From the NCBI GenBank assembly GCA_021323895.1, contig JAJPKD010000150.1:1-47422 (forward strand): a stretch of 47,422 nt of DNA, in the 5' to 3' direction. A model generated the notes under the pieces. The model saw only the letters and a program-made list of their open reading frames with translations, did no database searches and was not told the DNA's origin. The position numbers and the translations under genes were made by a program. Of this stretch, positions 24,812 to 42,317 are shown one piece after another. The stretch comes from Acidobacteriota bacterium. GTDB taxonomy: Bacteria > Acidobacteriota > Blastocatellia > Pyrinomonadales > Pyrinomonadaceae. Numbering within the stretch: the first letter of the stretch is position 1; each line of letters begins with the position of its first letter.

Positions 24812-26497
24812 ATGCGTAATCGTCTGTCATCACATCTGCTTTTGCTCGTCGCGCTCGTCGCGATCGAGATTGTCGGTTACTACGCGATTCGTCGCGGCGC
24901 GCTCATTCGCGGGTACGACACGTCGGTAATTGGCGCGATGCGCGACATCTTCATGTATCTGCCCATTATCGTGATGGCGATTTGGGTTTCGGCGGTCAGA
25001 AAGTTCAAAGGCAACTGGGTGCTGTTCACGACGGCGATTTTGCTTTTCTCGATCGGACTACTAATCCAATATCGCCTATATAGCGATCCTGAATACAACG
25101 CGAAGAACAAAGCCGCCGCGCGCCAGGAAAAGACGGACACGCTCCGGATGCGTTACATCAATCAAAATTACGACGCGGCCAAGCGGCAGATGATGGGATT
25201 GCCGGCGACCCCGCCGCCCGTCGATCAGGAAGCCCCGCCGAGAGAATCGACGTACACCGCCAGCAATGCTTTGACTTCGAGTTATACCTGGATCCCAGTG
25301 TTTTCATTGCTCGGATTCGCACTTGCCTATTCTTTCTGTGTCAACGATCGATTTCTTTCCTGGATTCAGCGCAACAGTTTCATCGTGGTCCTGTTGACAT
25401 TGATTCCGCTGGGCGTTGCCATTGTAAGTTCAAGCGCCGGCAAAGCCGTCGGCAATACCACGCCGTGGGAACCGGCAAAAGTTCCCTTCCTGCTGGGCTT
25501 CGCCGGGATTCTGACCGCGCGCTACAAAGATCTGGCGCGGACGTATTGGGGCATTCCACGCGCGCGCGACATCATTCCTCTCGTGGTGATGGCGGCGATT
25601 CCCTTCATTCCCTTCTTTGCGCTGAAAGATTTTGGCCAGATGCTCATCTTCAGCGGCGCGTACGCGACCTTGTATCTCGTCGCGGTGCGACGCTGGCCGC
25701 AGCTTTTGGTCTTTGTCGGATCGGTCTTCCTTGTTATTTCAATTTTGGTGGTCGGTGCGTTACCGCGCGACGTCCAGGAGAAGTTTCCACTGATTCCCAC
25801 CATCGCGCGTCCGGTCGCGCATGCTCTGCCCGCGCGCATTCAGCAACGATTCCATTTGTGGCTGGATGGATTCGACCCACCTTCGCCGGACGAAGCCTGG
25901 TGGAAAAAGGACTACGACGAAGCTTTAGAGAAGAACCCGGAGATGAAACAACTCGCCGACCAGAGCGAGGCGATGAAGAAGAGCGTCAACACCGACATCT
26001 GGTTCGATAAGCTTGCCTTCCAACCCGCGCAAGCCATCTTTGGAATTGCTTCCGGCAAGAGTACTGGACGAGGACTGGGGCTCGGATATCCCGAGGTCAT
26101 TCCAATCGCCGACTCGGATTATGTTTACGCGGCGATTGCTGAAGAAATGGGATTATTCGGAGGCGCGCTGGTGGTGCTGGCGATAATCATTTTCGTGATC
26201 GCTGGCATTCGCACTTCGATTGAAGCGCGTGATATGTTTACCAAGTTATGCGCAGCCGGCTTGACTGCTTTCATCGGCATTCAGGCGTTGGTCAACATCG
26301 GCGGTATCACCCGCGCACTGCCCATGACCGGAATCACTCTGCCGTTCGTTAGCCACGGCGGTTTTAGTTTGATTACGAGCTTCGCAATGCTCGGAATGTT
26401 AATGGCCTTTTCACATCGCAACGCACAGGACGCGCGCGCGGTCGCCAAGATCACGCACGAGCCGGAAAGCCCTCTCGTTTTGGAGGCAGTCGAATGA
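24812..26497 (+). CDS. rodA: FtsW/RodA/SpoVE family peptidoglycan glycosyltransferase
   Basis: A 561-residue polytopic membrane protein. SEDS-family marks are QYRLYSDPEY, LKDFGQMLIF, GLGLGYPEVIPIADSDYVYA followed by AIAEEMG, and the C-terminal MTGITLPFVSHGGFSL. It is longer than the usual 370-420 residues because of two extended hydrophilic loops (about residues 90-150 and 345-400). It polymerises lipid II together with the transpeptidase encoded just upstream. The start at ATG 24812 has only a weak ribosome-binding site; a better orphan site lies at 24728-24743. It overlaps the PP2C gene by 4 nt. Confidence 0.94.
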   Translation: MRNRLSSHLLLLVALVAIEIVGYYAIRRGALIRGYDTSVIGAMRDIFMYLPIIVMAIWVSAVRKFKGNWVLFTTAILLFSIGLLIQYRLYSDPEYNAKNKAAARQEKTDTLRMRYINQNYDAAKRQMMGLPATPPPVDQEAPPRESTYTASNALTSSYTWIPVFSLLGFALAYSFCVNDRFLSWIQRNSFIVVLLTLIPLGVAIVSSSAGKAVGNTTPWEPAKVPFLLGFAGILTARYKDLARTYWGIPRARDIIPLVVMAAIPFIPFFALKDFGQMLIFSGAYATLYLVAVRRWPQLLVFVGSVFLVISILVVGALPRDVQEKFPLIPTIARPVAHALPARIQQRFHLWLDGFDPPSPDEAWWKKDYDEALEKNPEMKQLADQSEAMKKSVNTDIWFDKLAFQPAQAIFGIASGKSTGRGLGLGYPEVIPIADSDYVYAAIAEEMGLFGGALVVLAIIIFVIAGIRTSIEARDMFTKLCAAGLTAFIGIQALVNIGGITRALPMTGITLPFVSHGGFSLITSFAMLGMLMAFSHRNAQDARAVAKITHEPESPLVLEAVE

Positions 26498-27990
26498 GCA
26501 CTCCATCACCTGCAAACAACATCGAAGTTGCTTCGATTTCAGATCGCGGCCTCAGTGAGAAGCGTCCGCTAAACGAAGATTCGTTTCTGGCGGACGCGGA
26601 TCGCGGCATCTTTGTGGTTGCCGACGGAGTGGGCGGCGCTGACGCCGGTGAGATTGCTTCGCAAACTGCAGTCGATGTTTTGAACGAAGCCTTTCGACAG
26701 AAGCTACCCGCCGATGAAGACGTCGAAGATTTGATGGAGCTGGCGATTCAGCGTGCCAACAGTTCGATCCATCAGATCGCGCTCGATAACCCGCGCTTCT
26801 CGATGATGGCGACGACGGTGGTCGCGCTGCACCTCGACGGCAATCGCGCGACGATCGGCCATGTAGGCGATTCGCGACTGTACCGATTGAGTCCCGATGG
26901 CCAGCTACTCCGTGAGACCGAAGACCACTCAGTCGTCGAAGAAGAGGTGCGCGCCGGCCGCATGACGCCCGAACAGGCGGCGAATCATCCAAGCAAGAAC
27001 GTCATCAGTCGCGCGCTGGGCGCCGAAGCTTCAGTCGAAGCCGACATGAAAGTGATTGAGGTCGAAGACGGCAGCGCGTTTCTTCTCTGCACCGACGGCA
27101 TCACACGTCACATTCCCGACACTGAGTTGCGCGAGTTGATGACCAGCGGCCACAGTCCGACCGAAATCTGCGAAGAGATGAAGCGGCGCTGTTATCAGCG
27201 CGGCGCTGAGGACAACTTGACGGCAGTCATCGTTCAAGTCGGCACTCCGAAATTCACTCGTGTCGTCGCCGATGACGAGGAACGAACCAAATCTTACGAA
27301 CGATTCGATCCTCCGACGCCGGACATGCCGAATCTCCCGTTGGAAACGAAACACAAATTGACACCGGCTTCGCGCGTCGCTTTCCCTGGCCCGGAAACCG
27401 CTCCCGCAACTACCGCCCCGGCGACTATGGCTCCGAAAAAATCGGGAGGAAGTGCCGTGCTTCGTTTCTTTGTCTTCATCTTGTTTCTCGCCGTTGCCGC
27501 GGGTGCGTTTTATGGCGGCATGCGCTATCAACAGCAGCGCGCTGGAACGAATGTGACGGCGCAACCAAGTCCATCGGCATCCGGGCCGCAAACCACCGAC
27601 ACAACGAAGCGCGCCGCAGTTGACGCCGATCCGCGTAAGTGGTTGAACGACAACGTGCAACCGCAACTGACCAAGGAAAATATTTCGAAGCCGACGGATT
27701 CAAAAGATTCCGAGTTCCTTTACCTCTACGGCCGTGCGCTGATGCTCACGGGTAGCCATCACGAGGCGATGCAGGCGTTTGAACTGGCGCTCAACAACCT
27801 CCGCGCAAACAGCAAAGGTGGTCTGCCGATGGAAACTGAAATCAAATTAGCTAACGCCGCAGCCGGCTTGCGAGTGAGCAGAGAGTCAACCGCGTCTCCC
27901 AAACCGCCGGACGCCGTCGCGGCTGAAGAAAAAGCCGCCGGCGTCTTGGATGAAATTCTCGGCCTGAAGCCCCAACCCTCTCCCAAGTAA
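26494..27990 (+). CDS. PP2C-type Ser/Thr protein phosphatase with membrane anchor
   Basis: A 498-residue protein. Residues 10-250 are a PP2C/Stp1 catalytic domain with metal-binding motifs NED (27-29), ADGVGG (43-48), GDSR (125-128), CTDG (199-202) and ED-N (239-241). A Pro/Ala-rich linker, one membrane helix (about 321-340) and an extracytoplasmic region of about 150 residues follow. That region has a TPR-like segment (EFLYLYGRALMLTGSHHEAM). The layout matches actinobacterial PstP, which reverses the partner kinase, except for the TPR-like tail. It overlaps rodA and is followed 14 bp later by the kinase gene. Confidence 0.92.
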   Translation: MSTPSPANNIEVASISDRGLSEKRPLNEDSFLADADRGIFVVADGVGGADAGEIASQTAVDVLNEAFRQKLPADEDVEDLMELAIQRANSSIHQIALDNPRFSMMATTVVALHLDGNRATIGHVGDSRLYRLSPDGQLLRETEDHSVVEEEVRAGRMTPEQAANHPSKNVISRALGAEASVEADMKVIEVEDGSAFLLCTDGITRHIPDTELRELMTSGHSPTEICEEMKRRCYQRGAEDNLTAVIVQVGTPKFTRVVADDEERTKSYERFDPPTPDMPNLPLETKHKLTPASRVAFPGPETAPATTAPATMAPKKSGGSAVLRFFVFILFLAVAAGAFYGGMRYQQQRAGTNVTAQPSPSASGPQTTDTTKRAAVDADPRKWLNDNVQPQLTKENISKPTDSKDSEFLYLYGRALMLTGSHHEAMQAFELALNNLRANSKGGLPMETEIKLANAAAGLRVSRESTASPKPPDAVAAEEKAAGVLDEILGLKPQPSPK

Positions 27991-28004
27991 TCCGCACCCA
28001 TTCG

Positions 28005-29561
28005 ATGAGTGAACTCAAGCTTCTTCAGTGTCGCCTCGACAGCCGTTATGACATCGAAGAATGCCTCGGCCGCGGTAGCTATGCCGAAATTTACATGGCC
28101 CGCGACCTGGCCGCGACTGACGAGCAGTTTCGCAAAGTCGTTGTTAAAGCGCTGAATGTTCTGCTTCAGGGTTACCAGGATCCGGAGCTCGAACGCACGT
28201 TAATCCAGAACTTTCAAAACGAAGCGATCGCGCTCGATCGCGTACGGCATCCGCACATCATCAGTCGTCTGGGACATGGCACCGCCTTCGATCTAAATGG
28301 CACCGCGTTTCACTATCTCGTGCTCGAGTATCTCGGCGGCGGCGACATGGCAAAGCTGGTTCGATCCGAACCGCTGCCGCTTGAGCGCGCGCTTTTTTAT
28401 CTCCAACAGGTTTGCGCAGGGCTGGCCCATGCACACGAATGCGGCGTCATCCATCGCGACATCAAGCCACAGAATCTCTTGCTGACGACGGATCGCGAGA
28501 CCGTCAAGATTGCAGACTTTGGCGTGGCGCGGATCGAAGCCACCGACGGCGCCATCACGCGCGTAGGCACGAACATCTACGCGCCGCCTGAACACAGTCC
28601 CCTGCTTCAGACGGCGCAGCTTGATACGGCATCGCTGCAATCGTCGCAGTTAACGCCGGCGGCTGACATTTATTCGCTCGCGAAGACTTCGTACACGCTG
28701 CTTTGCGGCGTGTCTCCGCGAACGTTTGCGCATGAACCGATCACCGAATTGCCCGCGCCGCTTTCGTTTCAGCCGTGGGCGCCATCACTCTTGCGCGTGT
28801 TAGAGCGCGCAACCCAAACGCGTCCCGCGGATCGTTATCAGACGGTGCAGGATTTCTGGGACGACTTGAATGATGTTGGGATGCCGGTGACGCAACCTCT
28901 CGCGGGTGCCGCCGCGCGCCGGCGACCTAGTTCGGATCTACATGTTGAGCCTGAAGTCTTGACGTTAGCCGCGCCACCGCGCCCGCGCTTTGAAACTTCG
29001 CTGGAACTGCAGCAGCACGAGCTGGGCCGTAATGGAAGTTCGCGACCAAAGATTGTGGTTCCCATCACCGGACATCGCCCGCTCAGCCCCACTCAGGAAT
29101 TGGCAGCACGGCTCGAACCGGGTCGCGTCACCGTGCAAGTCGGCAAGAACGATTTGCCCGGGCCGCGCTCAGCCGCGCAGATGGCGATCGCCAAGTCCCG
29201 AAAGCGCGGGCGCGACTTCGTCGTCGGCCTCGTTCTTGTGTTATGTTTCGCCGGTTTGCTCGCGGCAACGGGGGCGTATGTTCGTTCACTAATCCGACAA
29301 CGGCAGAGCCAGCAAACAACTACAACGACCGACGTCGGCAAGCAAGCGGTGACCGTCACCGATGTGAACTTGCGGGCCGGGCCAAATAAAAGCACCGACA
29401 TCGTCGGTCTGGCTGAGTCAGGTTCGAAAGTGCAGATTCTGAATTCGAGCGGCACGAGCAACTGGTGCGAAGTTCAAGTGGTGCAGCACGCTCGACCGAA
29501 GGACGATCCGAATTCAGCCGATCGCGGTTGGCTGAATCGGACGTACCTAAAGTTTGACTAG
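28005..29561 (+). CDS. Transmembrane Ser/Thr protein kinase with extracytoplasmic SH3b domain
   Basis: A 518-residue protein. The kinase domain spans about 15-290 with GRGSYAEIY (22-30), catalytic Lys48, HRDIKPQN (150-157), DFG (171-173) and APPE (193-196). A 100-residue linker, a membrane helix (about 405-425) and an SH3b domain (about 449-515: VTVTDVNLRAGPNKSTDIVG and RGWLNRTYLKF) follow. In mycobacterial PknB the outside part is PASTA repeats that bind muropeptides; here an SH3b domain, often a cell-wall ligand binder, takes that place. It is predicted to phosphorylate cell-wall proteins and create sites for the two FHA proteins of the operon. Confidence 0.93.
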   Translation: MSELKLLQCRLDSRYDIEECLGRGSYAEIYMARDLAATDEQFRKVVVKALNVLLQGYQDPELERTLIQNFQNEAIALDRVRHPHIISRLGHGTAFDLNGTAFHYLVLEYLGGGDMAKLVRSEPLPLERALFYLQQVCAGLAHAHECGVIHRDIKPQNLLLTTDRETVKIADFGVARIEATDGAITRVGTNIYAPPEHSPLLQTAQLDTASLQSSQLTPAADIYSLAKTSYTLLCGVSPRTFAHEPITELPAPLSFQPWAPSLLRVLERATQTRPADRYQTVQDFWDDLNDVGMPVTQPLAGAAARRRPSSDLHVEPEVLTLAAPPRPRFETSLELQQHELGRNGSSRPKIVVPITGHRPLSPTQELAARLEPGRVTVQVGKNDLPGPRSAAQMAIAKSRKRGRDFVVGLVLVLCFAGLLAATGAYVRSLIRQRQSQQTTTTTDVGKQAVTVTDVNLRAGPNKSTDIVGLAESGSKVQILNSSGTSNWCEVQVVQHARPKDDPNSADRGWLNRTYLKFD

Positions 29562-29566
29562 TCATG

Positions 29567-29643
29567 AAATCGTGAATCGTAAATAGAAACTGCCAACGGC
29601 GGCTTCTCTATTCACCATTCACGATTTACTATTCACCATTCAT
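29567..29643. repeat. 'Empty' inverted-repeat pair of the TCGTGAATCGTAAAT family
   Basis: AAATCGTGAATCGTAAATAG (29567-29586) pairs with CTATTCACCATTCACGATTT (29608-29627), 18 of 20 positions, around a 21-nt loop containing GCCAACGGCGGC. The right arm extends as ACTATTCACCATTC up to the start codon of the second FHA gene at 29642. The arms match the terminal repeats at 11015-11455, but no gene lies between them. Confidence 0.75.
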
Positions 29644-30517
29644 GAGCCTAATCGAATCAATTCGTAAATGGATCGACGGCGAAACTGCCGACGATGTTTT
29701 GGAAGAAGCCGAAGAGCACGCGCGGCCTCGGCGTGTCTGGGAAGAATTCCTGGTAAAAATTGCGCGCGAGGTTGAAGCTTGCATGCAGCGTGAAATGTTC
29801 ACGCCGCCGGGCGGACCTACCTACATTCCGCGCGAATACATCGTTTACCTAAGCAGCGAAGACGACAAAGAATGGCAGGGCGACAAGCGCCGCGGCCTCG
29901 AGCAGGGTTTGTTCCACGTGCTGTCTGAGCGCGCCCGGGAATTAGCTGGCTCAGTTCAATTGCAAACCAAATCATTCGCGATTGAATTGCGCGTCGATGG
30001 CACGCTGAACAAGGGCGAATTCCGCGTCCAACCCGTGTGGGACGAAACCGAAGCCGGCCATACGATGGTGACCGTGCGCCCAGCGACCACGACTTCCGGT
30101 GCTGCACCTGCCACGACCTCAACCGAAACCCCAGAGGCTGATTCGGATGAAACCGGCATGACGACATCCGAAGGCGAGATTACCGTCGTACGCCCGCGCG
30201 TCACCGAGCTTTACGCGATTGAGGTTTGGCGCGAAGGCGTGCGCCAGTCAGTCGTGAAGATTTCGAAATCGGAAATCACGATCGGCCGCGGCTCACGCAC
30301 AGTTGCGGTTGATTTACCTTTGAAAGGCGATCCCGAAATCAGTCGAGTGCACGCCACGCTGACGTTCGATGATCAAGGCCGCTACTGGATTGTTCCGAAG
30401 GGACGCAACCCTACGACAATCTCCGCGAAAGAAATTCCGCGCGAGCAGCGCACGATGGTCCAGCCTGACGAGAAGATTGGGATTTGCAGCTTCACCTTGC
30501 GGATTCAGCCGAAGTGA
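29642..30517 (+). CDS. Second FHA-domain protein with DUF3662-like N-terminus
   Basis: A 291-residue cytoplasmic protein. The N-terminal 130 residues (RRVWEEFLVKIAREVEACMQ, YIPREYIVYLSSEDDKEWQG) resemble the DUF3662 part of FhaA-type proteins. A Thr/Ala/Glu-rich linker (about 145-180) follows, then a C-terminal FHA domain at about 200-290 with ITIGRGSRTVAVDLPLKGDP and EISRVHATLTFDDQGRYWIV. The usual N-G turn is replaced by KGRNPTTI, so binding may differ. It is the last gene of the wall and phospho-signalling operon and converges on the HD-GYP gene with 4 bp between stops. Confidence 0.88.
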   Translation: MSLIESIRKWIDGETADDVLEEAEEHARPRRVWEEFLVKIAREVEACMQREMFTPPGGPTYIPREYIVYLSSEDDKEWQGDKRRGLEQGLFHVLSERARELAGSVQLQTKSFAIELRVDGTLNKGEFRVQPVWDETEAGHTMVTVRPATTTSGAAPATTSTETPEADSDETGMTTSEGEITVVRPRVTELYAIEVWREGVRQSVVKISKSEITIGRGSRTVAVDLPLKGDPEISRVHATLTFDDQGRYWIVPKGRNPTTISAKEIPREQRTMVQPDEKIGICSFTLRIQPK

Positions 30518-30521
30518 GCAG

Positions 30522-31778
30522 TTAGTGGGCTGTGGCTGCGAGCGAGCCGCCATCAAAATCAACCAGGAGTTGATTCAATAGCGGGCTGACGCTTTCGACG
30601 TTATCGTAGTTCCGATTGAGCAAGTTCAAGAGACGCCTCTCTTTACTTCCTTCGATCTCTTTCAGAAACGCGCGACAAAAAGCACAGACAACGACCGGAT
30701 CGAATTGCGTTCCGGTGTTCGCGCGGAAATCTTCCAGCACGTCTTCCAGCGGCAGCTTATTGCGATAAGGACGATCGGTCGTCATCGCGTCGAACGAATC
30801 GGCGAGCGTAACGATCTTGGCGCCGGGCGGAATCTGGTCGCCCTTCAAGCCGTCGGGATAACCGTTGCCGTCGATGCGCTCGTGATGATAGCGGGCCATC
30901 AAAGGGATCTCTGCGTAAGGATGATTGATGCGCGCGAGAATTTCGTAACCTGCCGAAGGATGGCGCGACATCTCTTTTGATTCTTTCGCGCTGAAACGCT
31001 CGGGCGAATTGATCACGCTGAGATCCACGATCAATTTGCCGATGTCGTGCAGGTAACCGGCTATGGTTATTCCTTCTACCTCGTCATCGCTCCAGCCCAT
31101 TTCGCGCGCGATGATTTCGCTGTACTTGCCGACGCGCACCGAATGGCCTTGCGTGTATCGATCCTTGATGTCGATGGCCGCGGCAAAGGCATGCACCGTT
31201 TCTTTGTAGATTTTTCGCAGCCCATCGTACAGCTTCTGGTTTTCGATGGCTTTGTGTTCGACTTCTTCCAGCAGGCGATGGCTATGAATACCGACGCCGA
31301 TGTGCCGCGACAGAACCTTGAGCGTTTCGAAATCTTCTTCAGTGAATTTCTCGCCCGAAGCTTTTTCGCCGAGCAAGACGATCCCGATCAGGCGTTCGCG
31401 CACCACCAGCGGCAGCAGTAGATCGATCTCAATCGAGGCCAATTCGCTTTTATGATCTTCGAGGAACCGTTCAGCTTCTTTCGTCGCGTCGGCGAGCGTG
31501 ATCGCCGAGCCGAGACTCGCCAGATCCCGCGCGTGATGGGCTGCGATGTTGAAAGTTTCGCTCGTGCCCACACCCAACCCGCGCGCGGCCACCAGGCGCA
31601 ATTGGTGCCCTTCACGGTCATATTCCGTCACGCCGCCACGGCGAATCGCGAGCGATCCCAGCAGCAGATGAAACGAATTGCGCAGCATCTCTTCGAAGTC
31701 GCCCGTGTCGGCAATCTCCTGTCCGAGATCCGCCAGTGCCGAAAACGTGTGAAGCAATCGTTGTGTGTCTGTATCCAT
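30522..31778 (-). CDS. GAF-HD-GYP cyclic di-GMP phosphodiesterase
   Basis: A 418-residue protein. Residues about 20-170 form a GAF sensor domain (LLLPLVVRERLIGIVLLGEK). A helical linker leads to an HD-GYP domain with HDIGKL (H244-D245), RHPSAGYEIL, ARYHHERIDGNGYPDG (GYP at 306-308) and LADSFDAMTTDRPYR. The HD pair, the HHE and the GYP motif are all present, so hydrolysis of c-di-GMP is expected. It is the last gene of a four-gene minus-strand set with a diguanylate cyclase, so synthesis and breakdown are encoded together. It is 14 bp from the STAS gene. Confidence 0.93.
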   Translation of the reverse strand: MDTDTQRLLHTFSALADLGQEIADTGDFEEMLRNSFHLLLGSLAIRRGGVTEYDREGHQLRLVAARGLGVGTSETFNIAAHHARDLASLGSAITLADATKEAERFLEDHKSELASIEIDLLLPLVVRERLIGIVLLGEKASGEKFTEEDFETLKVLSRHIGVGIHSHRLLEEVEHKAIENQKLYDGLRKIYKETVHAFAAAIDIKDRYTQGHSVRVGKYSEIIAREMGWSDDEVEGITIAGYLHDIGKLIVDLSVINSPERFSAKESKEMSRHPSAGYEILARINHPYAEIPLMARYHHERIDGNGYPDGLKGDQIPPGAKIVTLADSFDAMTTDRPYRNKLPLEDVLEDFRANTGTQFDPVVVCAFCRAFLKEIEGSKERRLLNLLNRNYDNVESVSPLLNQLLVDFDGGSLAATAH

Positions 31779-31792
31779 TGAAGTTGTGTCAG

Positions 31793-32155
31793 TCAGATCT
31801 GCGCGGCGAGGGAGAGCGCTTCGTCCTCGTTCGTGGCCAGGCTGACGTGACGTGTCAGCCCCAGCATCTCGAACAAATTGGCCGTGTGATTATTTACGTC
31901 TGAAAAAATGAGGCGCGCAGTACTTTGCTCAGCCGCGTCGATTACGCCCACCAGAATCGAAACGCCGATGCTGTTAACGAGTTCCGTGTCGCGAAAGTTA
32001 ATAATCAGCGTGCGACAGCCTGACTCGAGTTGCCGCCGGCATTCCCGTTCGATGCGCTCGCCGCTGAGTTTATTGAGATAATCGCTTGCGTAAATGATCG
32101 CGACATCACCCACGCTGCGCGACTGCACCGCGATCTCCCGACCAGCGTCCGTCAT
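31793..32155 (-). CDS. STAS-domain anti-sigma-factor antagonist
   Basis: A 120-residue SpoIIAA/RsbV-like protein: VGDVAIIYASDYLNKLSGER, CRTLIINFRDTELVNSIGVS and ILVGVIDAAEQSTARLIFSD. The phospho-acceptor is most likely S62 in NSIG, the usual position for phosphorylation by an RsbW-type kinase. Such a domain is encoded directly upstream (32229-34436), so the pair probably form a partner switch. A cognate PP2C phosphatase is not in this operon. The palindromic repeats at 32160-32232 separate it from the kinase-like gene. Confidence 0.92.
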   Translation of the reverse strand: MTDAGREIAVQSRSVGDVAIIYASDYLNKLSGERIERECRRQLESGCRTLIINFRDTELVNSIGVSILVGVIDAAEQSTARLIFSDVNNHTANLFEMLGLTRHVSLATNEDEALSLAAQI

Positions 32156-32159
32156 GCTT

Positions 32160-32232
32160 CAGTAAGGCCCCCCTCTTACTGAGTAGCGCAAGTTGATAAC
32201 TTGCGAGATCGCAAATTAACAATTTGCGCTAC
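32160..32232. repeat. Three palindromes between the RsbW-like and STAS genes
   Basis: CAGTAAG-gccccccct-CTTACTG (about 32160-32182) is followed by CGCAAGTT-gat-AACTTGCG (32187-32205) and CGCAAATT-aac-AATTTGCG (32210-32228). The last two are members of a 19-bp family with a 3-nt variable centre. They are bordered by GTAG and CTAC, as seen also at 39405-39423 and 43003-43022. The TAG stop of the RsbW-like gene is formed by the border. Confidence 0.8.
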
Positions 32233-34436
32233 CGTAAGTATTTCGTCATTCTCAGTTGCGTGCCGTCGTCCACGTGAACGAACTCGACTTCGTCCATCAA
32301 CGTCTTGATCAGCTTCAAGCCCCAGCCTCGGCGGCTCTTTGCGTTCGGCTCGATGCTCGCTTCTTGTCCGTTCCGTCCGGGCAATTGCGTGGGCACGACG
32401 CCGCGACTCGCTACCGTAACGACTAATTTATCATCTTCTAACCGAAAGCGCTGGTAAATTCTTCGATCGGGACTGAGGCTGTGTTCGGTGGCATTGATGC
32501 ACGCTTCGACCAACGCCGTCTTAATTTGATTTATTGCTTCGGGCTGGAAGTTGATCCGTCGCGCAATCTGCTCCACGGCTCGCGCCGCGACGAGTTCCGA
32601 ATCCTCACCCATTGGGATGATCATTTCATACTCGTCCGCATCAATCGTGCTTGGTTCAAGAGTCTCGGTCGAGACAAGCTTCGCGATCAATTCAAACTGC
32701 TGACGGCTCGAGCCGAACGCCTTCCGTTCATTCAGGAAATCACTTGCGTCCTTCGAGAACCCTTCACGCGTGATTAGCCAAATACGGAAGCGTTCAAAAC
32801 CATTCTCGCGGGCGAGACTGGTCAGGCGATCGCAGGACGCTTCGATGAGTTCTCTGCTCGCTTCCAGTTTTGAATCGATTTCCGTAACCAGCCAAACCAC
32901 TTCGCTTTCGGTTTCGTACTCCGCGTTTTCAAAAGCATGCGCCACCACACAGCGTTCTGATACGGAGCCGGCCGTATTCGTAATGGCTCCGCAGCAAACG
33001 GCCTGTATCACCTGGGGCAGGCGAAGCAACTCCGATTCTGTTTCCAAGCCGCTCTCGATCGCGTCAGGCGTTTCGCCCTTGTACCTAGCCGCAAAGCGAT
33101 CGTAATGAAACAACACGGCGGGAATGTCCTGACAATTGAACTGTGGCAGCAAATCAGCCAACCCGAGCGCCGATTCGCGGCGGTACTTCTGCGCCATCGT
33201 TTGTGGCGCGCGCTTCAGCGTCTCTGCCAACATTGCGCCGACAACCCTGGCGCGCGGCCCACCCGACACTTCCAACTCGTATTGAGTGCGCAGGTAATCG
33301 ATCCACGGATAGGAGTCGGTGTTGACTTCGATGAAAGCTGCGGTTGAGTTCACCATCTCGTACACGTGAAGCGCTTCGATCAGTTGCTCGAACTCATGAG
33401 ACGCCAGCCCGATTCTCTTCTTCCAGGCCCCCAGCGACGACTTGCGCGTCTCGCTGGCCGCGGACTCATACAAAACTCGAAGCAATGTGCGCTTCGTTTG
33501 CGAAGAGTCCGCCAGGCCATTAATGATTGAATCGAAGTGGCGCTTGATGCTTCCGCCCATCAAATCGTCAACGTAGAGCCGCTGGCAATTCAGAAAGCTG
33601 ACGAGCGAAGTCTGTTTGTCATGCGCAGTCCGCAGAAACGTGCTGATGAAAAGTGGGCTGCCACCAAGTTGCTGCGCAATGAGATCGCGCGAAGCCTCGT
33701 CAATTTTGATATTCCGACGTCGTGCCAAAGTGTCTATGAGGCGGCTGGCCGCTTCATCGTCAAGTCGATCGATATTGACGGTACCGCTGGCATCGCTGAT
33801 CGTTCGGTCCGCGTCGTGAAGTAATTGGGCCACCTGCCGGCGCAGGCCGGCTATCGCAAACGGGCCTCGAGTTCGCCTAATGAGCCGCAGCAGGCTACCA
33901 GCGATCGTAGCTCCTGGGCCGAATGGTTGCGTCGCCATGCAATCCAAAAGTGGATAAACAACTCGGCCATTGACGGAAAGCCGATGCGGCATACTGAAAC
34001 AGAATTCAAGAAATTCGTTTTCGGAGGTTTGTTCGCGTTCGAACCTGTCGATCAGCGTGGTTACCAACTCGTAATCAGACGGCAGCGCCAAGTCGGAGAG
34101 ATCATTTAGCGTTAGAGGCGCCGTACACAGCAGCGAGTCAACGCGGCGATAGGCTATGTACTGCTGCAGAGCAGTTTTGAAAAACCGGCGCCCTGTCTCA
34201 GATGCGGATTCATTTGCCTTCCAGGGAAAGTAAACTGGAATTGCAAAGCCACGTTGCTGAAACAACTGATCGTATGTCTGCCGAAGCAACTCTCCGGCGC
34301 CGGCGCCGGGCGCGCTCATCAGAATGATGCCGCGGGCCGTGGCCGCAACCGCCTGCTGCGTGAGCGCGCGCAGTTCCGCATCGCGACCGACGAAGTCTTC
34401 GCGAGGCGTCAGGGCAAGTATCTGAGTTTGTCTCAT
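32229..34436 (-). CDS. NTPase-like protein fused to a C-terminal RsbW/HATPase domain
   Basis: A 735-residue protein starting at the ATG at 34436, whose A overlaps the upstream stop (TGATG). The N-terminus (REDFVGRDAELRALTQQAVA) is typical of AAA/STAND NTPases, but the P-loop reads SAPGAGAGELL with no Lys-Thr/Ser, so nucleotide binding is doubtful. A helical middle of about 400 residues follows. Residues about 616-735 form an anti-sigma kinase-like HATPase fold: the N box EACINATEHS and the G2 box RRGWGLKLIKTLMD are present, but the G1 Asp (normally D-x-G) is replaced in VASRGVV. It probably binds the STAS protein encoded next, though kinase activity is uncertain. Confidence 0.8.
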   Translation of the reverse strand: MRQTQILALTPREDFVGRDAELRALTQQAVAATARGIILMSAPGAGAGELLRQTYDQLFQQRGFAIPVYFPWKANESASETGRRFFKTALQQYIAYRRVDSLLCTAPLTLNDLSDLALPSDYELVTTLIDRFEREQTSENEFLEFCFSMPHRLSVNGRVVYPLLDCMATQPFGPGATIAGSLLRLIRRTRGPFAIAGLRRQVAQLLHDADRTISDASGTVNIDRLDDEAASRLIDTLARRRNIKIDEASRDLIAQQLGGSPLFISTFLRTAHDKQTSLVSFLNCQRLYVDDLMGGSIKRHFDSIINGLADSSQTKRTLLRVLYESAASETRKSSLGAWKKRIGLASHEFEQLIEALHVYEMVNSTAAFIEVNTDSYPWIDYLRTQYELEVSGGPRARVVGAMLAETLKRAPQTMAQKYRRESALGLADLLPQFNCQDIPAVLFHYDRFAARYKGETPDAIESGLETESELLRLPQVIQAVCCGAITNTAGSVSERCVVAHAFENAEYETESEVVWLVTEIDSKLEASRELIEASCDRLTSLARENGFERFRIWLITREGFSKDASDFLNERKAFGSSRQQFELIAKLVSTETLEPSTIDADEYEMIIPMGEDSELVAARAVEQIARRINFQPEAINQIKTALVEACINATEHSLSPDRRIYQRFRLEDDKLVVTVASRGVVPTQLPGRNGQEASIEPNAKSRRGWGLKLIKTLMDEVEFVHVDDGTQLRMTKYLR

Positions 34437-36145
34437 CAATTGTGCCGAGGATTCATGGGACCGGCCGGCTGCGCTCCTTGAAACGCGTACGCTCGATTCT
34501 TTCCATGATGCTTCGCGTGATAAAGAGCGCGATCCGCCGCGCGCACAATTGCTTCGGCTGAATCAAGGGTGCCGGAGAGCGTTGAAAGGCCAATGCTCAC
34601 CGTTACGCTGCCCAGCGGCTGTGTCTTGCCGTGCGGAAACGGCGTGGTCATGATTTTCCGGCGAATGCGATCGGCGATCACGCCCGCCTCTTCCAAACTA
34701 GTTTGCGGCAGCAGGATCGAGAACTCTTCGCCTCCATAACGCGAGGCGACGTCAACTTTGCGCAGCTCTGCCCGCAAGCATTGCGCGGTGATCTCCAGAG
34801 CGCGATCGCCCGCCTGATGGCCATTGCGATCGTTATAGAGCTTGAAATCGTCGATATCGATCATCATGAAGCTGAGTGGATAGTCATACCGTTTTGAACG
34901 GCTTAATTCTTCGGCCAGTCGCGCTTCCAGATAACGTCGATTGTGCAAGCCCGTGAGCGGGTCGGTGATCGACATCAACTGAAATTGATTCGCGCGCTGC
35001 TGCCACTCAGCTCGTTCAAGCGCCAGCGCAATCTGCGGCGCCACCAGGTCGATCACGCTCAAGTCGTGAATGTCATAAGCGCCGCCGCCGATCTTGTCCG
35101 CGAGATTCAAGACACCAAAGCGGCGCGCGCCGATCGTAATCGGGTAGCTGATAAACGACTTGGTTTTGTACCGGCGCTCAGACGGACTCACTCTCCCCAA
35201 CTCGTCAACCGTCGCGACCAGCGGCCGATTCTCCCGCATGACCGCGCCGGCAATTCCCTCGCCCATCGCGATCGGAGCGACTTCGGCGACCGCCGCGGGA
35301 ATACCCCGCGCCGCGGTCATCGTCAGACTATTTGCCGATTCATCAAACAACAAGAGCGAGCTGCGCTCGGCGCCGACCAAGTCTGCCGACTGCGCCACAA
35401 TCGATTGATAAGTTCGCGCTGGATCGGAAGCATCGATCTGTTCGGCGAACCTGCGAATCGACTCAGCCAGGCTGGCTGCGGTTGATGAGGGCGAAGGCTC
35501 CGGCCCGGAAATTAACTCATCGCGAAGAGCCGGCTCGTCACTGGGCACAAGCTCATCGGCCGCAACCGCGATCTCTTCGTCTCCCGGCGGCTGCGTCGTT
35601 ACGAACTTTTGCGCCGCATTGCTCACTCGCAGTGCCGCATGATCTAGATCGGCCTCGTCGGCGAAGATCACGTTTTGGAACAGCTCGGTTGAACACAGAT
35701 CCTGAAGGTCACCCGAGCGAAATCGTTCAACGAGTTCTCGATAATCCGTTCCGTGCAAGAACGCTCGTCCGCCGATGACTACGAGTTCACGCGCCTCATC
35801 GATTTCGATCGGCATCGCGAAGCACTGCAAACCAGCATGACAGCGGTAGTGTGTGATCGTCCCTGCGGCTGTGGCACGCGCGTGCGCTTCCCCGCAAAAC
35901 GGATCGCAAAGCTTGACGTAATCAGGTGACGATTGCAGCGCCTGGCAAATCGAGTTGTTGTTAGTTACCGACAGCGCGGGTGGTTGGTGACCTTCAACCA
36001 GCAGCAGCGAAATTCCGGACGAGGCGGAGATCTCCGCCTGCACCTTGGACCAGTTGGCCGGCGCGCCTCCCGGCTCTTCCTGCGGAGTCTCGCGCGCTGG
36101 TTTTTTCCGGGACTTCACCTTCGTGTTTGAATCAGATTGCTGCAT
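34436..36145 (-). CDS. PocR-GAF-GGDEF diguanylate cyclase
   Basis: A 569-residue soluble protein. Residues about 30-185 are a PocR-type sensor with the conserved Cys set C80, C84, C102 and C108 (YVKLCDPFCGEAH, YRCHAGLQCFAMPI). Residues about 220-380 are a GAF domain. The GGDEF domain at about 393-555 has DPLTGLHNRRYL, the active site GGEEF (471-475) and a product-inhibition I-site R462-K-V-D465 exactly five residues before it. It should therefore make c-di-GMP under feedback control. PocR may sense a small ligand or redox state through its Cys residues. It is the first gene of the four-gene set and is translationally coupled to the next. Confidence 0.94.
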   Translation of the reverse strand: MQQSDSNTKVKSRKKPARETPQEEPGGAPANWSKVQAEISASSGISLLLVEGHQPPALSVTNNNSICQALQSSPDYVKLCDPFCGEAHARATAAGTITHYRCHAGLQCFAMPIEIDEARELVVIGGRAFLHGTDYRELVERFRSGDLQDLCSTELFQNVIFADEADLDHAALRVSNAAQKFVTTQPPGDEEIAVAADELVPSDEPALRDELISGPEPSPSSTAASLAESIRRFAEQIDASDPARTYQSIVAQSADLVGAERSSLLLFDESANSLTMTAARGIPAAVAEVAPIAMGEGIAGAVMRENRPLVATVDELGRVSPSERRYKTKSFISYPITIGARRFGVLNLADKIGGGAYDIHDLSVIDLVAPQIALALERAEWQQRANQFQLMSITDPLTGLHNRRYLEARLAEELSRSKRYDYPLSFMMIDIDDFKLYNDRNGHQAGDRALEITAQCLRAELRKVDVASRYGGEEFSILLPQTSLEEAGVIADRIRRKIMTTPFPHGKTQPLGSVTVSIGLSTLSGTLDSAEAIVRAADRALYHAKHHGKNRAYAFQGAQPAGPMNPRHN

Positions 36146-36305: not shown

Positions 36306-37355
36306 TCAAGCGAATTCGGCCTTCAGCCCGGGCGCGTCTCCGGGCGCGACCCGTTCGATGTCCGGTTGGTCGGGACTGATACGAATGCAGGCGGCGAAAT
36401 GATTGGGCTTAATTTGCACGAGTTGTGGCTCGACCTCGCGGCAGGCGTCAATGGCGTATGCGCAGCGGGTGTGAAAGCGACAGCCGCGCGGCGGATTAAT
36501 GGGCGAAGGCACGTCGCCTTTCAAAACGATACGTTGCCGCACCGTTTCAATTTTCGGGTCAGGCACGGGCACAGCCGAAATCAAGGATCGCGTGTAAGGC
36601 ATCAAGGGATCTTCGTACACGGCTTTTGCCTCGCCGAGTTCGACAATCTTTCCGAGATACATCACCGCAATTCGATCCGCGACGTGTCGCACAGCGCGCA
36701 GATCGTGGGAAATGAATAGATAGGTCAGCTTCTTCTGGTCGCGCAGCCGTGCAAGCAAATTCATTATCTGAGCTTGAATTGACACATCGAGAGCAGAGAT
36801 CGGCTCATCCGCAACGATGAACTCGGGATCGACGGCAAGCGCGCGTGCGATTCCAATTCGCTGGCGCTGGCCACCCGAAAATTCATGAGGATAACGATTT
36901 AGAAATCGCGAACTCAGACCGACCATCTCCAACAATTCCTGCACGCGGCGTTTTCGCTCGGCGCCATCGGCGATCCGAAATGTCTGCAACGGTTCGCCGA
37001 CGATTTGGCCCACAGTCATGCGAGGATTGAGGGATGCGTAAGGATCTTGAAAGATGATCTGCAACTTCCGGCGCAACTTACGCATTTCCGAATTCGACAC
37101 TTGAGCCAAATCTTGATCGCGAAACAGAATCTGTCCGGCGGTGAGATTAGTGAGCCGGAGGATCGCGCGCCCGAGCGTCGTCTTGCCACAGCCGGACTCG
37201 CCCACCAAGCCCAACGTTTCACCGGACCGAATCGTCAAATCAACGCCATCGACGGCCTTCACCACTCGCCCTGCTCGACCAAACAATCGGCGGCTTGCGG
37301 CAAAGTGCACCTCTAAACCGCCAACAGAAATCAATGCTTGATCGCTATTCGTCAT
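36306..37355 (-). CDS. oppF: Oligopeptide ABC transporter ATP-binding protein OppF/DppF
   Basis: A 349-residue ATPase of the peptide/nickel transport family. It shows Walker [13 protein letters not shown], the signature [15 protein letters not shown], Walker [14 protein letters not shown] and the C-terminal oligo_HPY region with [14 protein letters not shown], a Cys-rich patch that can bind an iron-sulfur cluster in relatives. It energises import together with OppD. Its start follows the oppD stop directly (TAA then ATG), so translation is coupled. Last gene of oppABCDF. Confidence 0.95.
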
Positions 37356-38363
37356 TTAAGCAGCGCTCTTCGTCTCCGCGTAAATCTCGTTTGCAAAATG
37401 GCAGAGCGATCGATGGCTCATCGTCAGTTCGACAAACGGCGGAAACTCTCTCCGACAAATTTCTTCGGCACGCTCGCAGCGCGGCGCGAATGGACACCCG
37501 GGCGGTAGATGCGCCAAGTCCGGGGGCTGCCCGGGAATCTGATACAGCGTCTCGTGCTCGCTCGTCGGGTCGGGCACGGAGCGCAACAGACCTTTCGTAT
37601 AAGGATTTGCAGTTCGTTCGAACAATTCGCGGGTCGGTGCCTCTTCAAAAAGTTTTCCCGCATACATCACGACAACTCGATCCGTCATGCCGGCAACGAC
37701 GCCAAGATCATGCGTGATGAGGATGACGCTAGCGCCCGTCTCGCTCTTCAAATGCTTGATAAGCTCGAGTATCTGCGCCTGAATTGTGACGTCGAGCGCG
37801 GTCGTAGGTTCATCGGCAATCAGCAATTCCGGCTGACATGAAAGCGCCATTGCAATCATGACGCGCTGGCGCATTCCGCCGGAAAACTCATGAGGATAAC
37901 TATCGACGCGCTCGTGAGCGTCGGGAATTCCCACTTGCTCGAGCATCTTGATCGCGTGCGCGCGCGCCTGCTGCTTCGTGTGGCCCAGATGGAGTTGTGT
38001 TACTTCCATCAATTGCTTTGACACGCGCATGAACGGATTGAGCGAAGTCATCGGGTCCTGGAAAATCATCGCGATGCGTTTGCCGCGCAGTCCGCGAATT
38101 TCAGTTTGGGAAAGCTTGAGTAGATCGCGACCACCAAACTCGATAAAGCCTGACTCAATTTTTCCCGGCGGTTCTGGAATCAGACGCAATAACGACAGAT
38201 TCGCGACGGTCTTGCCCGAGCCCGATTCGCCGACGATGCCCAGCGTCTCGCCCCGCTTCACTTCGAAGCTGATGCCGTCAACGGCCTTAACCGTGCCATC
38301 TTCTGTTTTGAAGACGACGCACAGGTCGCGCACGCTTAAGAGATTTCCGTTCTCAGTACTCAT
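37356..38363 (-). CDS. oppD: Oligopeptide ABC transporter ATP-binding protein OppD/DppD
   Basis: A 335-residue ATPase when started at the ATG at 38363. It has Walker [14 protein letters not shown], the signature [15 protein letters not shown], Walker [14 protein letters not shown], the switch His in LITHDLGV and the C-terminal Cys motif [15 protein letters not shown]. It pairs with OppF on the cytoplasmic face. The gap from oppC is 8 bp. Confidence 0.95.
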
Positions 38364-38371
38364 CAAGACAA

Positions 38372-39397
38372 TCAGTTACGGCGAGCCTGCGGATCGAGCG
38401 CGTCGCGCAATCCGTCGCCGACGAAATTCAACGAGAAAAGCATCAGCGCCATCGTTACTCCGGGAAAGATCAATTGCCAGGGAAAAACCGCAAGATTCGC
38501 CGCGCCTTCTGCGGCTAAACTTCCCCACGATACGCGCGGCGGCCGCACGCCGAGCCCAAGAAACGAAAGAAAAGCCTCGCTCAACATTACGGTCGGAATC
38601 GTGAGCGTGGCGTAAACGATCACCGGTCCGAGCGCGTTGGGAATCAGATGGCGGAAGATAATTTTCGGCGTCGAAACGCCGGTTGCGCGCGCCGCCAAAA
38701 CAAACTCCTGGTTCTTCAGAGACAGAATTTGGCCGCGAACGATGCGCGCCATCGTCAGCCATGACACGGCGCCGAGCGCGAAAAACAACTGCGCCAGTTG
38801 CGCCGTCGGCGTCTTAGCCGGCAGCAGTGCCAACAGAACGATCACGATGATCACGTATGGCAATGAATACAGAACATCGACAATGCGCATCATCAGATCA
38901 TCCAATGGGCCGCCGAGATAGCCGGCGATGGCCCCGTACGAAACCCCGATGACCAGCGAGACCAGCGTCGCGATTAGCGCGACCATCAAAGAAATCTGTC
39001 CGCCTGAGAGCACGCGTGCCAGAATGTCGCGTCCGGCGGCATCAGTGCCCATCGGATGCGCAAGCGAGAATCGCCCGTCCGGTCCGCGAAACGGCGGAAA
39101 CGATTTCAACAGCGCGGAGTCTTTGGGAATTGAGTCGTAGGTGTATCCCGTCGTCTTCTGAATAATAGTTGGACCGATGAGCGAGGCCACGACCAGCACC
39201 AGCACCACAATCATTCCGAAGACGGCCAGCTTGTTCTTCAACAACCGCCGCCACGCGTCTCGCCAGAGCGAACTGCCGACGACGACTTCTCCCGTGACGA
39301 GTTCGGCGATGTCTCTCTCGGCTACCGCGTACTCTGCGCTGATGTGCAAATCGGCTGAGTCGGGGATTTGGTCCTTCTGTTGGCGATTCTCTTCCAT
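38372..39397 (-). CDS. oppC: Oligopeptide ABC transporter permease OppC/DppC
   Basis: A 341-residue inner-membrane permease. The start is at the ATG at 39397 because the upstream in-frame TTG lies in a palindromic repeat. A long N-terminal cytoplasmic tail precedes the first membrane helix ([19 protein letters not shown]). The OppC_N region and the EAA loop are present ([20 protein letters not shown]), followed by [18 protein letters not shown]. It forms the channel with OppB. Confidence 0.95.
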
Positions 39398-39404
39398 GAC
39401 GGTT

Positions 39405-39428
39405 CGCAAATTAGAAATTTGCGGTACT
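39405..39428. repeat. 19-bp palindrome CGCAAATT-NNN-AATTTGCG before oppC
   Basis: CGCAAATT-aga-AATTTGCG at 39405-39423 is followed by GTAC. It has the same arms as 32210-32228 with a different 3-nt centre. It lies between the oppB stop (39428-39430) and the oppC start (39397). Confidence 0.8.
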
Positions 39429-40348
39429 CAATAGCGAATGCGCGGATCGATGAATGCGTACGAAATATCGACAAGCAGGTTAAAAACCAAAACTGAAATT
39501 GCGATGAACGCGACGATCCCGATGATGAGCGGCTCGTCGCGATTGAAACAGGCGTTGATGAAATAGTTTCCCAAGCCCGGCAACGCGAAGATGCGTTCGA
39601 CGACGACAGTCCCGGTAATCAGAAAAGCCAGCGCCGGCCCCGAGAACGAGACTACCGGGAGCAAGCCTCCCCGCAGCGCATGGCGCGTAACCACTTGCGT
39701 TTCGCTCAAGCCTTTTGCGCGCGCCGTCCTAATGTAATCTGAACGCATGACCTCTAGCATTCCCGATCGCGTCAAGCGCGCGATGTAAGCGATGTAGATC
39801 GCGGACAGTGTCAGCGCCGGCAGCACCAGGCTCTTGCTGGGAAATCCATTCCAAAGCGCCGGCGGAAACCAGAACAGCGTCAGCGAAAACAGAAGCACCA
39901 GCAGAGGCCCGAGTACAAAATTTGGAATTGAGATTCCCAGCATCGCGAGAGTCATGCTCGCGTAGTCGAGCCAGGAATTAGGTTTGAGCGCGGCGAGCGC
40001 ACCCATCGTGATCCCGACTAGCAAAGCGATCAGGTATGCGGTAATTCCGAGCGTCGCGGATACCGGCAGCGCTCGCAACAGAATCTGGTTGACCGATTGG
40101 CCTTCGTACTTGAGCGAATTCCCGAAATCAAACCGCGCAATGTTCTTCAGAACCTTTCCGTACTGCACATACCACGGCTTATCGAGTCCGTATTTCTCAC
40201 GCAGATTCTTTTCCACCGCGGGCGCCAGCTTCTTCTCGCCGGTGTAAAAACTGCCGGGGGCCAGGCGCACGAGCGTCCACGTCAGCGACACGACGATCAA
40301 AAGCATTGGAATAATGACGATGACGCGGCGGATGATGAAGCGCAGCAT
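39428..40348 (-). CDS. oppB: Oligopeptide ABC transporter permease OppB/DppB
   Basis: A 306-residue permease with a first membrane helix at the N-terminus (MLRFIIRRVIVIIPMLLIVV), the periplasmic LREKYGLDKPW segment typical of the family, five further helices and the EAA loop RTARAKGLSETQVVTRHALR. It starts 1 bp after the oppA stop codon. Complete, with no sign of damage. Confidence 0.95.
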   Translation of the reverse strand: MLRFIIRRVIVIIPMLLIVVSLTWTLVRLAPGSFYTGEKKLAPAVEKNLREKYGLDKPWYVQYGKVLKNIARFDFGNSLKYEGQSVNQILLRALPVSATLGITAYLIALLVGITMGALAALKPNSWLDYASMTLAMLGISIPNFVLGPLLVLLFSLTLFWFPPALWNGFPSKSLVLPALTLSAIYIAYIARLTRSGMLEVMRSDYIRTARAKGLSETQVVTRHALRGGLLPVVSFSGPALAFLITGTVVVERIFALPGLGNYFINACFNRDEPLIIGIVAFIAISVLVFNLLVDISYAFIDPRIRY

Positions 40349-40349
40349 T

Positions 40350-42317
40350 TCAGTTACCCATCTCCGGCATGCCGTAATCCCACTTGGAAGAATCGCGTTC
40401 GATGAAGGCGTACTTCCACGGATGAAGCATCGCCGGATTCGGATAGAACCCTTTCAAGTAGGGTTTTTTTAATGAGCGCGTGGTGCCGACAGTGAGCGGA
40501 ATCACGGGTTGAGCATCGAGCAGAAGTTGTTCGGCCTGAGCTAACAGTTGATATCGCTTTTGGTGATCGACAGCGCGATTTGCTTCTTCGAGCAGCGCCA
40601 CGTACTTCGGATCCAACCATCCGGTGTTGTTCGCTCCACCCGTCGAGCCGAAGATGCTCAGGAACGTGTATGGATCCATGTAGTCCGCGGCGTAACCCGT
40701 GCGGGCAACGCCTTTGTATTCGAGTGCGGACATGGTCTTAGAGAGCGTCTTCGCTTCCATAACGCGAATCGAGATCGTCACGCCAAGATTTTGTTTCCAC
40801 TGTGCCTGAATGAACTCTGCATACGGAAGATTATTGGCATCAGGATTGACGATCAGTTCCACCTCGCTGGCTTCGAATTTCTTCGGATCGAAATTACCGG
40901 AGGCGTCGCGATATCCGGCCTCTGCCAGCAAGCGTTTTGCTTTCTCAGGATCGAATGGATCGCCTTTTGGCTGCGGGTAACCGGGAAAGATCCCGTCGGG
41001 CGTCATAGCCGTTAGCGCTTTCACATGACGCCAATTTGCCAAAGCCTTTTTGTCGAGCGACATGTTCATCGCTTTGCGCACGCGCACATCAGCAGTCGGT
41101 CCCTTGCTCGTATTGAAGTTGTAGTAATCGATGGCGGCTTCCGGCGCGTCCATGAAATCCTTCAACGGCCCAATCACATCCAGCCAGGCGGACGGCACCG
41201 TGTGATTGTAGGTCGCATCCAACTCGCCGGCCTTATACAGACTCATCATCGTCGCGTTCTCGGTCAGTAGATAAAACACGACGCGATCGAGCTTGACGTT
41301 GCGCGCGTCCCAATTCATTGGATCGCGCGCGACGACGATTCGATCGTAATGCTTCCATGATTCGAGCTTGAATGCGCCGCTGGTGACGATGTTCCCAGCG
41401 TCAGTCCATGCGCTGCCAAACTTTTCAATCGTCTTCTGATGAAGCGCGCGAAAGAACTGGTGCGGCATCATGTTGATGAAATATGGCGCGGGTACTGAAA
41501 ACGAAATTCGCAGAGTGTAGTCATCGACAGCTTCGACGCCGATGTCTTCGGCGCCAACAGGCACAAGCTGCTTGCCCGTAACGGCGGCGTTCAGTTTTGG
41601 GTTCGCATCGAGGATTTTCTTGCGGTTCTTCTCAGACTTGGGCAAGACAACGCGGGCCGGCGAGTGCATCAATTGATGGAAAGCTGTGTCACTCGCAGGC
41701 GTCTTTCCTTCGCTGCTGGCTGGATATTCGTCTGAAATCGATTTGATCGGCTGAGAACTAAGGGGCGCACTCGCCTGATTGTTCCCTTCCTCAAAATCTC
41801 TTTCCAACAGAAAGATCTTCGCGACGGGATCGTAAACGAAGACGTCCCCCTCGTTGAACGCGTGCGCGTATTTGATTGGGTATGCGAGCTGCGCCGTGCG
41901 CGATCCGGTTTCCGGGGTCAGCCCGCGCCGGATGGTGTAAACGAAATCGCGCGCGGTAATCGGATCGCCATTTGAGAAACGACCATCATGCCTAAGATGG
42001 AAGACAAACTCTGACGAATCTTTGTTGACTTCCCAACGCTCGGCGAGCGCGGGAATCGCTTCGCTGGTTTTCGGATCGTATTCAGCCAGCCCTTCGTACA
42101 GGGCCAGACAAATGCGCGCCTCGTTTTGCCCGGGTGATATTTGCGGATCGATCGATTCCGGCTCCGATCCGGAAACGTAACGAAGAATGTTTTCGCGGGG
42201 CGGGTCAGTCTTGCCGAAGAAAACAGCGTTCCTGGCTTACACAGCGCAACCGGCGACGACGAGACATCCGATCAGCGTGATCGAAAGAGTCCGAAATCGC
42301 GAATGCGCGTTAGACAT
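40350..42317 (-). pseudogene. oppA: Peptide ABC transporter substrate-binding lipoprotein OppA, in-frame TAA after the lipobox
   Basis: One frame of 656 codons starts at the ATG at 42317. The signal peptide is MSNAHSRFRTLSITLIGCLV then VAGC, a lipobox with C24 as the lipidated residue. Three codons later comes TAA (42237-42239, codon 27). The frame continues as a normal SBP_bac_5 protein: ENILRYVSGSEPESIDPQIS, ARICLALYEGLAEYDPKTSE, VFHLRHDGRFSNGDPITARD FVYTIRRGL, and on to MPEMGN at 40353. A TAC (Tyr) to TAA change would explain it. As written only a 26-residue lipopeptide would be made, and oppBCDF would lack their receptor. A TTG at 41807 opens a long internal frame but would lack the export signal and about 170 residues. 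Confidence 0.9.

Follow-up and report, generated by a model that had tools for sequence, protein, structure and literature searches.

Gene content of the locus

The window, which is the whole stretch of 47,422 nucleotides that was analysed, corresponds to contig C207 of an acidobacterial genome assembly (4.4 Mb in 322 contigs, 95% complete). Four genes are encoded co-directionally on its minus strand between positions 30522 and 36145. Their open reading frames and Pfam domains agree with an earlier note on this DNA, which had described them as coupled or separated by short gaps. The first codes for a diguanylate cyclase of 569 amino acids (34436..36145; Pfam PocR 4.5e-13, GAF 1.3e-13, GGDEF 1.2e-46), comprising a PocR sensor (~35603-36052), a GAF domain (35015-35428) and a GGEEF domain with an RxxD I-site (34493-34969). 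The second, here termed the hub gene, codes for a protein of 736 amino acids (32229..34439, with a probable ATG start at 34436; Pfam HATPase_c_2 6.7e-20) with a pseudo-STAND ATPase fold (~33285-34418), a PD-(D/E)xK-like fold (32649-33152) and an RsbW-type HATPase domain (32241-32588). The cyclase stop codon and the hub ATG overlap in the sequence TGATG. A gap of 73 nt separates the hub gene from that for a STAS anti-sigma-antagonist-like protein of 120 amino acids (31793..32155; Pfam STAS 1.2e-9; Ser62 codon at 31970-31972), and 14 nt separate the latter from the gene for a GAF-HD-GYP c-di-GMP phosphodiesterase of 418 amino acids (30522..31778; Pfam GAF, HD_5 1.5e-33), whose HD domain is encoded at 30690-31184.

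Two parts of the locus had been missing from the earlier note. Directly upstream of the four genes, after a gap of 160 nt, the minus strand encodes an SBP-OppB-OppC-OppD-OppF peptide-type ABC transporter (36306..41807), which is found beside the set throughout most of the order and could connect peptide uptake to the c-di-GMP module. In the gap from the hub gene to the STAS gene lie two head-to-head copies of a palindromic, REP-like repeat, GTAGCGCAAATTGTTAATTTGCG (32183..32232, without strand assignment). About 40 near-identical copies of this repeat occur in the genome, several of them as opposed pairs, and the pair in the locus is predicted to form a strong RNA hairpin (-37.6 kcal/mol, z -6.4). 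No Rfam family was matched within the window, while a promoter and terminator scan returned no sigma-70-like site and nothing decisive. On the plus strand, a convergent run of genes for FtsW, an Stp1/IreP-type PP2C phosphatase, a Ser/Thr kinase and an FHA protein (24812-30517) stops 5 nt short of the HD-GYP gene, and many genera of the order share this layout.

Conservation and co-occurrence of the four genes

An alignment-based scan of genomes for the hub yielded 273 candidates, resolved to 80 loci, whereas a single-sequence hub query alone retrieved none. The loci recovered with the hub are labelled Pyrinomonadaceae or Blastocatellia (Acidobacteriota), the closest being that of 'Blastocatellia bacterium UBA11740', and the four-gene set is also found in the named strain Pyrinomonas methylaliphatogenes K22. 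A contig labelled Deltaproteobacteria (L099) carries the set at 45-76% identity and probably derives from a mislabelled or contaminated assembly. In the phylum sample, the full-length hub is confined to two families of the class Blastocatellia, matches elsewhere covering the RsbW-type domain only.

Gene neighbourhoods were counted at 43 loci, 40 from the order and three from the second family. At 42 of these loci the PocR-GAF-GGEEF gene immediately precedes the hub gene, the sole exception falling at a contig end. The spacing of the two genes ranges from overlap up to ~140 nt, with one outlier, and many loci show overlap or a gap of less than 10 nt. The STAS and HD-GYP genes follow the cyclase-hub pair in most loci. 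In the largest genus the two pairs are separated, and in all 17 genomes where the STAS-GAF-HD-GYP pair has moved away from the cyclase-hub pair it remains intact. The second family retains the four genes in collinear order at 30-44% identity with no adjacent Opp transporter (for example L164 and L172). Where STAS and HD-GYP genes are not adjacent, the hub gene is in some genomes followed instead by a gene of the FHA-GGDEF type (L167, L173 and L174).

Among 119 genomes of the order, 99 carry the full-length hub, 92 the STAS gene and 90 the HD-GYP gene, the last set of genomes being identical to the STAS set less two genomes of low completeness. According to counts tallied by hand from the tables, hub and STAS are both present in 91 genomes and both absent in 19, with nine discordant cases, comprising one genome with STAS only and eight with hub only, most of which are incomplete or have cut contigs. 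A Fisher test of this co-occurrence gave 8e-15, a value uncorrected for phylogeny and drawn from related genomes that are not independent. The joint absences are scattered over several genera, as in the comparisons of genome G019 with G020, of G039 with G040 and G041, and of G010-G015 with G016 and G018. The four genes are thus a conserved module and not a chance cluster, so that the proposal in the earlier note, for which lack of conservation in relatives had been named among the refuting observations, came through that check. The set probably represents one functional module, evolutionary linkage of this kind being evidence of shared function rather than of wiring.

The c-di-GMP enzymes and the STAS protein

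The I-site reported as intact in the earlier note is present in the window, and both the GGEEF motif and the RxxD I-site are kept in all 42 aligned cyclases with letters at these positions, three of which show an AGEEF/AGDEF-type change of the first glycine. The GG(D/E)EF and substrate residues are likewise invariant or nearly so across the 42 aligned rows. The HD and HHExxDGxGYP metal ligands of the HD-GYP domain are intact in 46 of 46 sequences. The invariance of the catalytic and I-site residues suggests that both c-di-GMP enzymes are probably active. In the PocR part, in sequences re-extracted after correction of start sites, Cys67, Cys80, Cys84 and Cys102 are invariant (39/39) and Cys108 is kept in 37 of 39. 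The four invariant cysteines make a metal, redox or small-ligand input plausible, in keeping with the ligand or redox cue proposed earlier. For the PocR part, no relative appeared among the matches listed by a PDB sequence search.

The STAS protein matches SpoIIAA-type antagonists in sequence. Its TxxxNSIGxS motif is invariant in 48 of 48 relatives (Thr57, Asn61, Ser62, Ile63, Gly64 and Ser66), with NSIG in place of the DSSG of SpoIIAA. Ser62 aligns with Ser58 of SpoIIAA, the phosphorylation site of that protein, and the predicted STAS fold thus bears a serine of the phosphorylatable type before a conserved glycine.

A hub protein lacking key nucleotide-binding residues

The AlphaFold model of the hub has a mean pLDDT of 90. 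Residues 8-385 match archaeal STAND-type ATPases over ~318 residues (2qen, Z 17.4; 2fna, Z 17.1), and some hub relatives reach the Pfam models ATPase_2, AAA_16 and nSTAND1. The Walker A lysine is missing in all 66 relatives, position 48 being occupied by Ala, Val, Leu or other small residues; GxSEL replaces GKS/T, and the P-x-x-G-x-S/T-E skeleton is kept without the lysine. The fusion of NTPase-like and RsbW-like parts described earlier therefore holds for the fold and for the HATPase domain, but the P-loop of the NTPase-like part is dead. An NTPase activity of the hub was considered and rejected as improbable on the state of this motif.

Folded alone, the middle domain (residues 430-597) gives a pLDDT of 92. 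It weakly resembles restriction-endonuclease folds (AF1548, Z 8.6; EndoMS, 7.4; MspJI, 6.8), with nearly all top rows belonging to this one fold. Only some of the results of this search rose above background, and the nuclease reading applies at the level of the fold only. The corresponding (D/E)xK motif is largely kept apart from its first Asp, with an acidic residue at 522 in 62 of 66 relatives, Lys524 in 63 and the first Asp in only 35.

Residues 602-736 match RsbW (6m36) with Z 16.4 and an rmsd of 1.6 over 105 aligned residues, and the C-terminus matches Bacillus subtilis RsbW at the sequence level (6.2e-9), with a score of 55.9 bits against the curated NCBIfam RsbW model, below its cut-off of 145. 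The N-box residues Glu645 and Asn649 and the G2-box glycines are intact in all 66 relatives, so that the hub may still bind ATP. The G1-box Asp (DxGxG), which is present in RsbW and SpoIIAB, is replaced in all 66, by Asn in 41 and by Ser in 25. This residue contacts adenine in GHKL proteins, and its loss makes normal ATP use by the hub doubtful; the standard RsbW kinase implied by the earlier note is not supported at this position. In the model the region of the ATP lid shows little order (pLDDT ~40), and it is not conserved. The G1-box Asp is kept in two further RsbW-type proteins encoded in this genome, one on contig C202 (VKDQGEGFD) and one on contig C272 (VEDEGDGFN). The protein on C272 (L215, 4559-5320, minus strand) is receiver-like and RsbW-type, and a GGDEF-EAL gene occurs on the same contig; C202 carries a canonical RsbV-RsbV-RsbW cluster.

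Sigma factors and phosphatases

The earlier note had envisaged the release of an anti-sigma-like target and had suggested a search for a sigma factor and an RsbU-type PP2C elsewhere in the genome. The sigma factor was not forthcoming, since no SigB/F/G-type match exceeds the curated cut-off in this genome, which is 95% complete, and the best match is RpoD-like (573 aa). No sigma gene occurs within the set in any locus examined. The search for the phosphatase gave three strong SpoIIE/RsbU-type domains encoded elsewhere in the genome. The strand coding for the set carries no phosphatase gene, the nearest PP2C being the convergent one at 26494-27990; this was set aside as the missing phosphatase, since it is of the Stp1/IreP type and on the other strand.

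Relationship to known partner switches

STAS or STAS-like antagonists that control diguanylate cyclases are established in the pairs SiaC-SiaD, HsbA-HsbD and BgrV-BgrR (PMC8457831, PMC6482189, PMC7647112), and in Moorella thermoacetica the RsbT-like GHKL protein MtT binds and damps the diguanylate cyclase MtG (PMC7647112). The earlier description of the locus as a previously undescribed combined circuit cannot be upheld in that form, as cyclase-setting partner switches are already published in SiaABCD, HsbRAD, BgrUWV-R and MtT-MtG (PMC8457831, PMC7647112, PMC6482189). A literature search, in a corpus of incomplete coverage, found no description of the present architecture.

Resembling the set, the SiaABCD operon of Pseudomonas aeruginosa couples a phosphorylatable antagonist and its kinase to a GGDEF cyclase, in that case tied to carbon availability (PMC7647112, PMC8457831). 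However, SiaC is a DUF1987 protein rather than a STAS protein, the SiaA phosphatase is encoded in the operon, there is no phosphodiesterase gene, and SiaB is a working kinase that has no STAND or nuclease-like domains. In the same species the STAS-type antagonist HsbA binds the diguanylate cyclase HsbD, but HsbR combines receiver and PP2C domains with a kinase, HsbA also targets FlgM, and there is no HD-GYP partner (PMC6482189). The STAS protein BgrV of Sinorhizobium meliloti, under a phosphatase/kinase couple, sets the activity of the cyclase BgrR; phosphatase and kinase are separate proteins there, and the sections consulted describe no phosphodiesterase (PMC8457831, PMC7647112). The Moorella pair shares with the set a GHKL-type protein acting on a diguanylate cyclase (PMC7647112), but it is stressosome-based; MtT, a switch kinase of the RsbT type, has no STAND fusion, and there is no HD-GYP in that set. 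The likeness to B. subtilis RsbW/RsbV lies in the matches of the hub C-terminus and of the STAS protein, while the hub differs from RsbW in its fusion to STAND and nuclease-like folds, the loss of the G1-box Asp and the apparent lack of a sigma partner. The set belongs to a known kind of system, from which it differs by the inclusion of both c-di-GMP enzymes, the pseudo-STAND/nuclease-fold/RsbW hub, the PocR input and the lack of a phosphatase gene. In the known cyclase-coupled partner switches described in the cited texts, the cyclase is the sole output. The present set conserves a phosphodiesterase alongside the cyclase, and the exchange of one protein would thereby be able to determine in which direction c-di-GMP is turned over.

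Proposed mechanism and alternatives

On an evenly balanced judgement, the four genes serve as a dedicated partner switch, with c-di-GMP turnover at a local level as its output. As the cyclase gene is welded to the hub gene and the phosphodiesterase gene to the STAS gene, the two c-di-GMP enzymes are the economical target, and the fact that no SigB-type sigma factor was found likewise makes them a more likely output than a sigma factor. The cyclase would hold the hub, the two presumably being translated together, and the hub would report or set the state of the cyclase. The STAS protein may shuttle between the RsbW domain of the hub and the phosphodiesterase (or the cyclase), and PocR/GAF input would switch the making and breaking of c-di-GMP in opposite senses. 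Judged from the residues it has lost, the Walker lysine and the G1-box Asp, the hub probably works by binding rather than by ATP-driven kinase action of the usual kind. Any phosphorylation of Ser62 may then fall to a different kinase. In a comparison of distances across 32 loci by partial correlation, controlled by OppD/OppF, the HATPase of the hub follows the PocR part most closely (partial r 0.47, p 0.001), the STAS protein follows HD-GYP (partial r 0.27, p 0.007), and the hub HATPase-STAS correlation is weak (partial r 0.21, p 0.065). These correlations are weak evidence for partner links, and neighbouring genes can share history.

It is possible, if rather unlikely, that the system instead runs as in SiaABCD, with the RsbW domain phosphorylating Ser62, an unlinked RsbU-type PP2C reversing this, and unphosphorylated STAS activating the cyclase or the phosphodiesterase. 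Such a switch would account for the invariance of Ser62, the N-box and the G2 box and could draw on the three SpoIIE/RsbU-type domains elsewhere in the genome, but it has to accommodate a G1-box Asp lost throughout the hub relatives and kept in the RsbW-type proteins on C202 and C272, a disordered and variable ATP lid and a set without a phosphatase gene. A switch wholly independent of phosphorylation is also a rather unlikely proposition; the hub, with both nucleotide sites disabled, would be a pure docking platform that holds the PocR cyclase and trades STAS with HD-GYP, one exchange setting synthesis and breakdown oppositely. The locus also poses the question of whether partner switching is possible around a hub from which the customary kinase residues are missing.

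A classic anti-sigma arrangement, in which an unlinked sigma factor is bound by the hub and freed by STAS, with c-di-GMP as a side input, is improbable; the RsbW-like domain does resemble anti-sigma factors in sequence and fold, but the loci read have no sigma gene in the set and the genome gives no SigB/F/G-type match over the cut-off, a target of the ECF or RpoD type being conceivable. Most improbable is that two conserved pairs lie side by side by inheritance without working together, since, for all that the pairs separate in the largest genus and much local synteny (the Opp and FtsW-PP2C-STPK-FHA genes) is conserved anyway, both pairs are kept when separated, both are missing together in ~19 genomes of several genera, and in the second family the four genes are kept whereas the Opp genes are not. 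The favoured reading of a partner switch directed at c-di-GMP turnover, in these soil Acidobacteriota of the class Blastocatellia, is testable via P. methylaliphatogenes K22.
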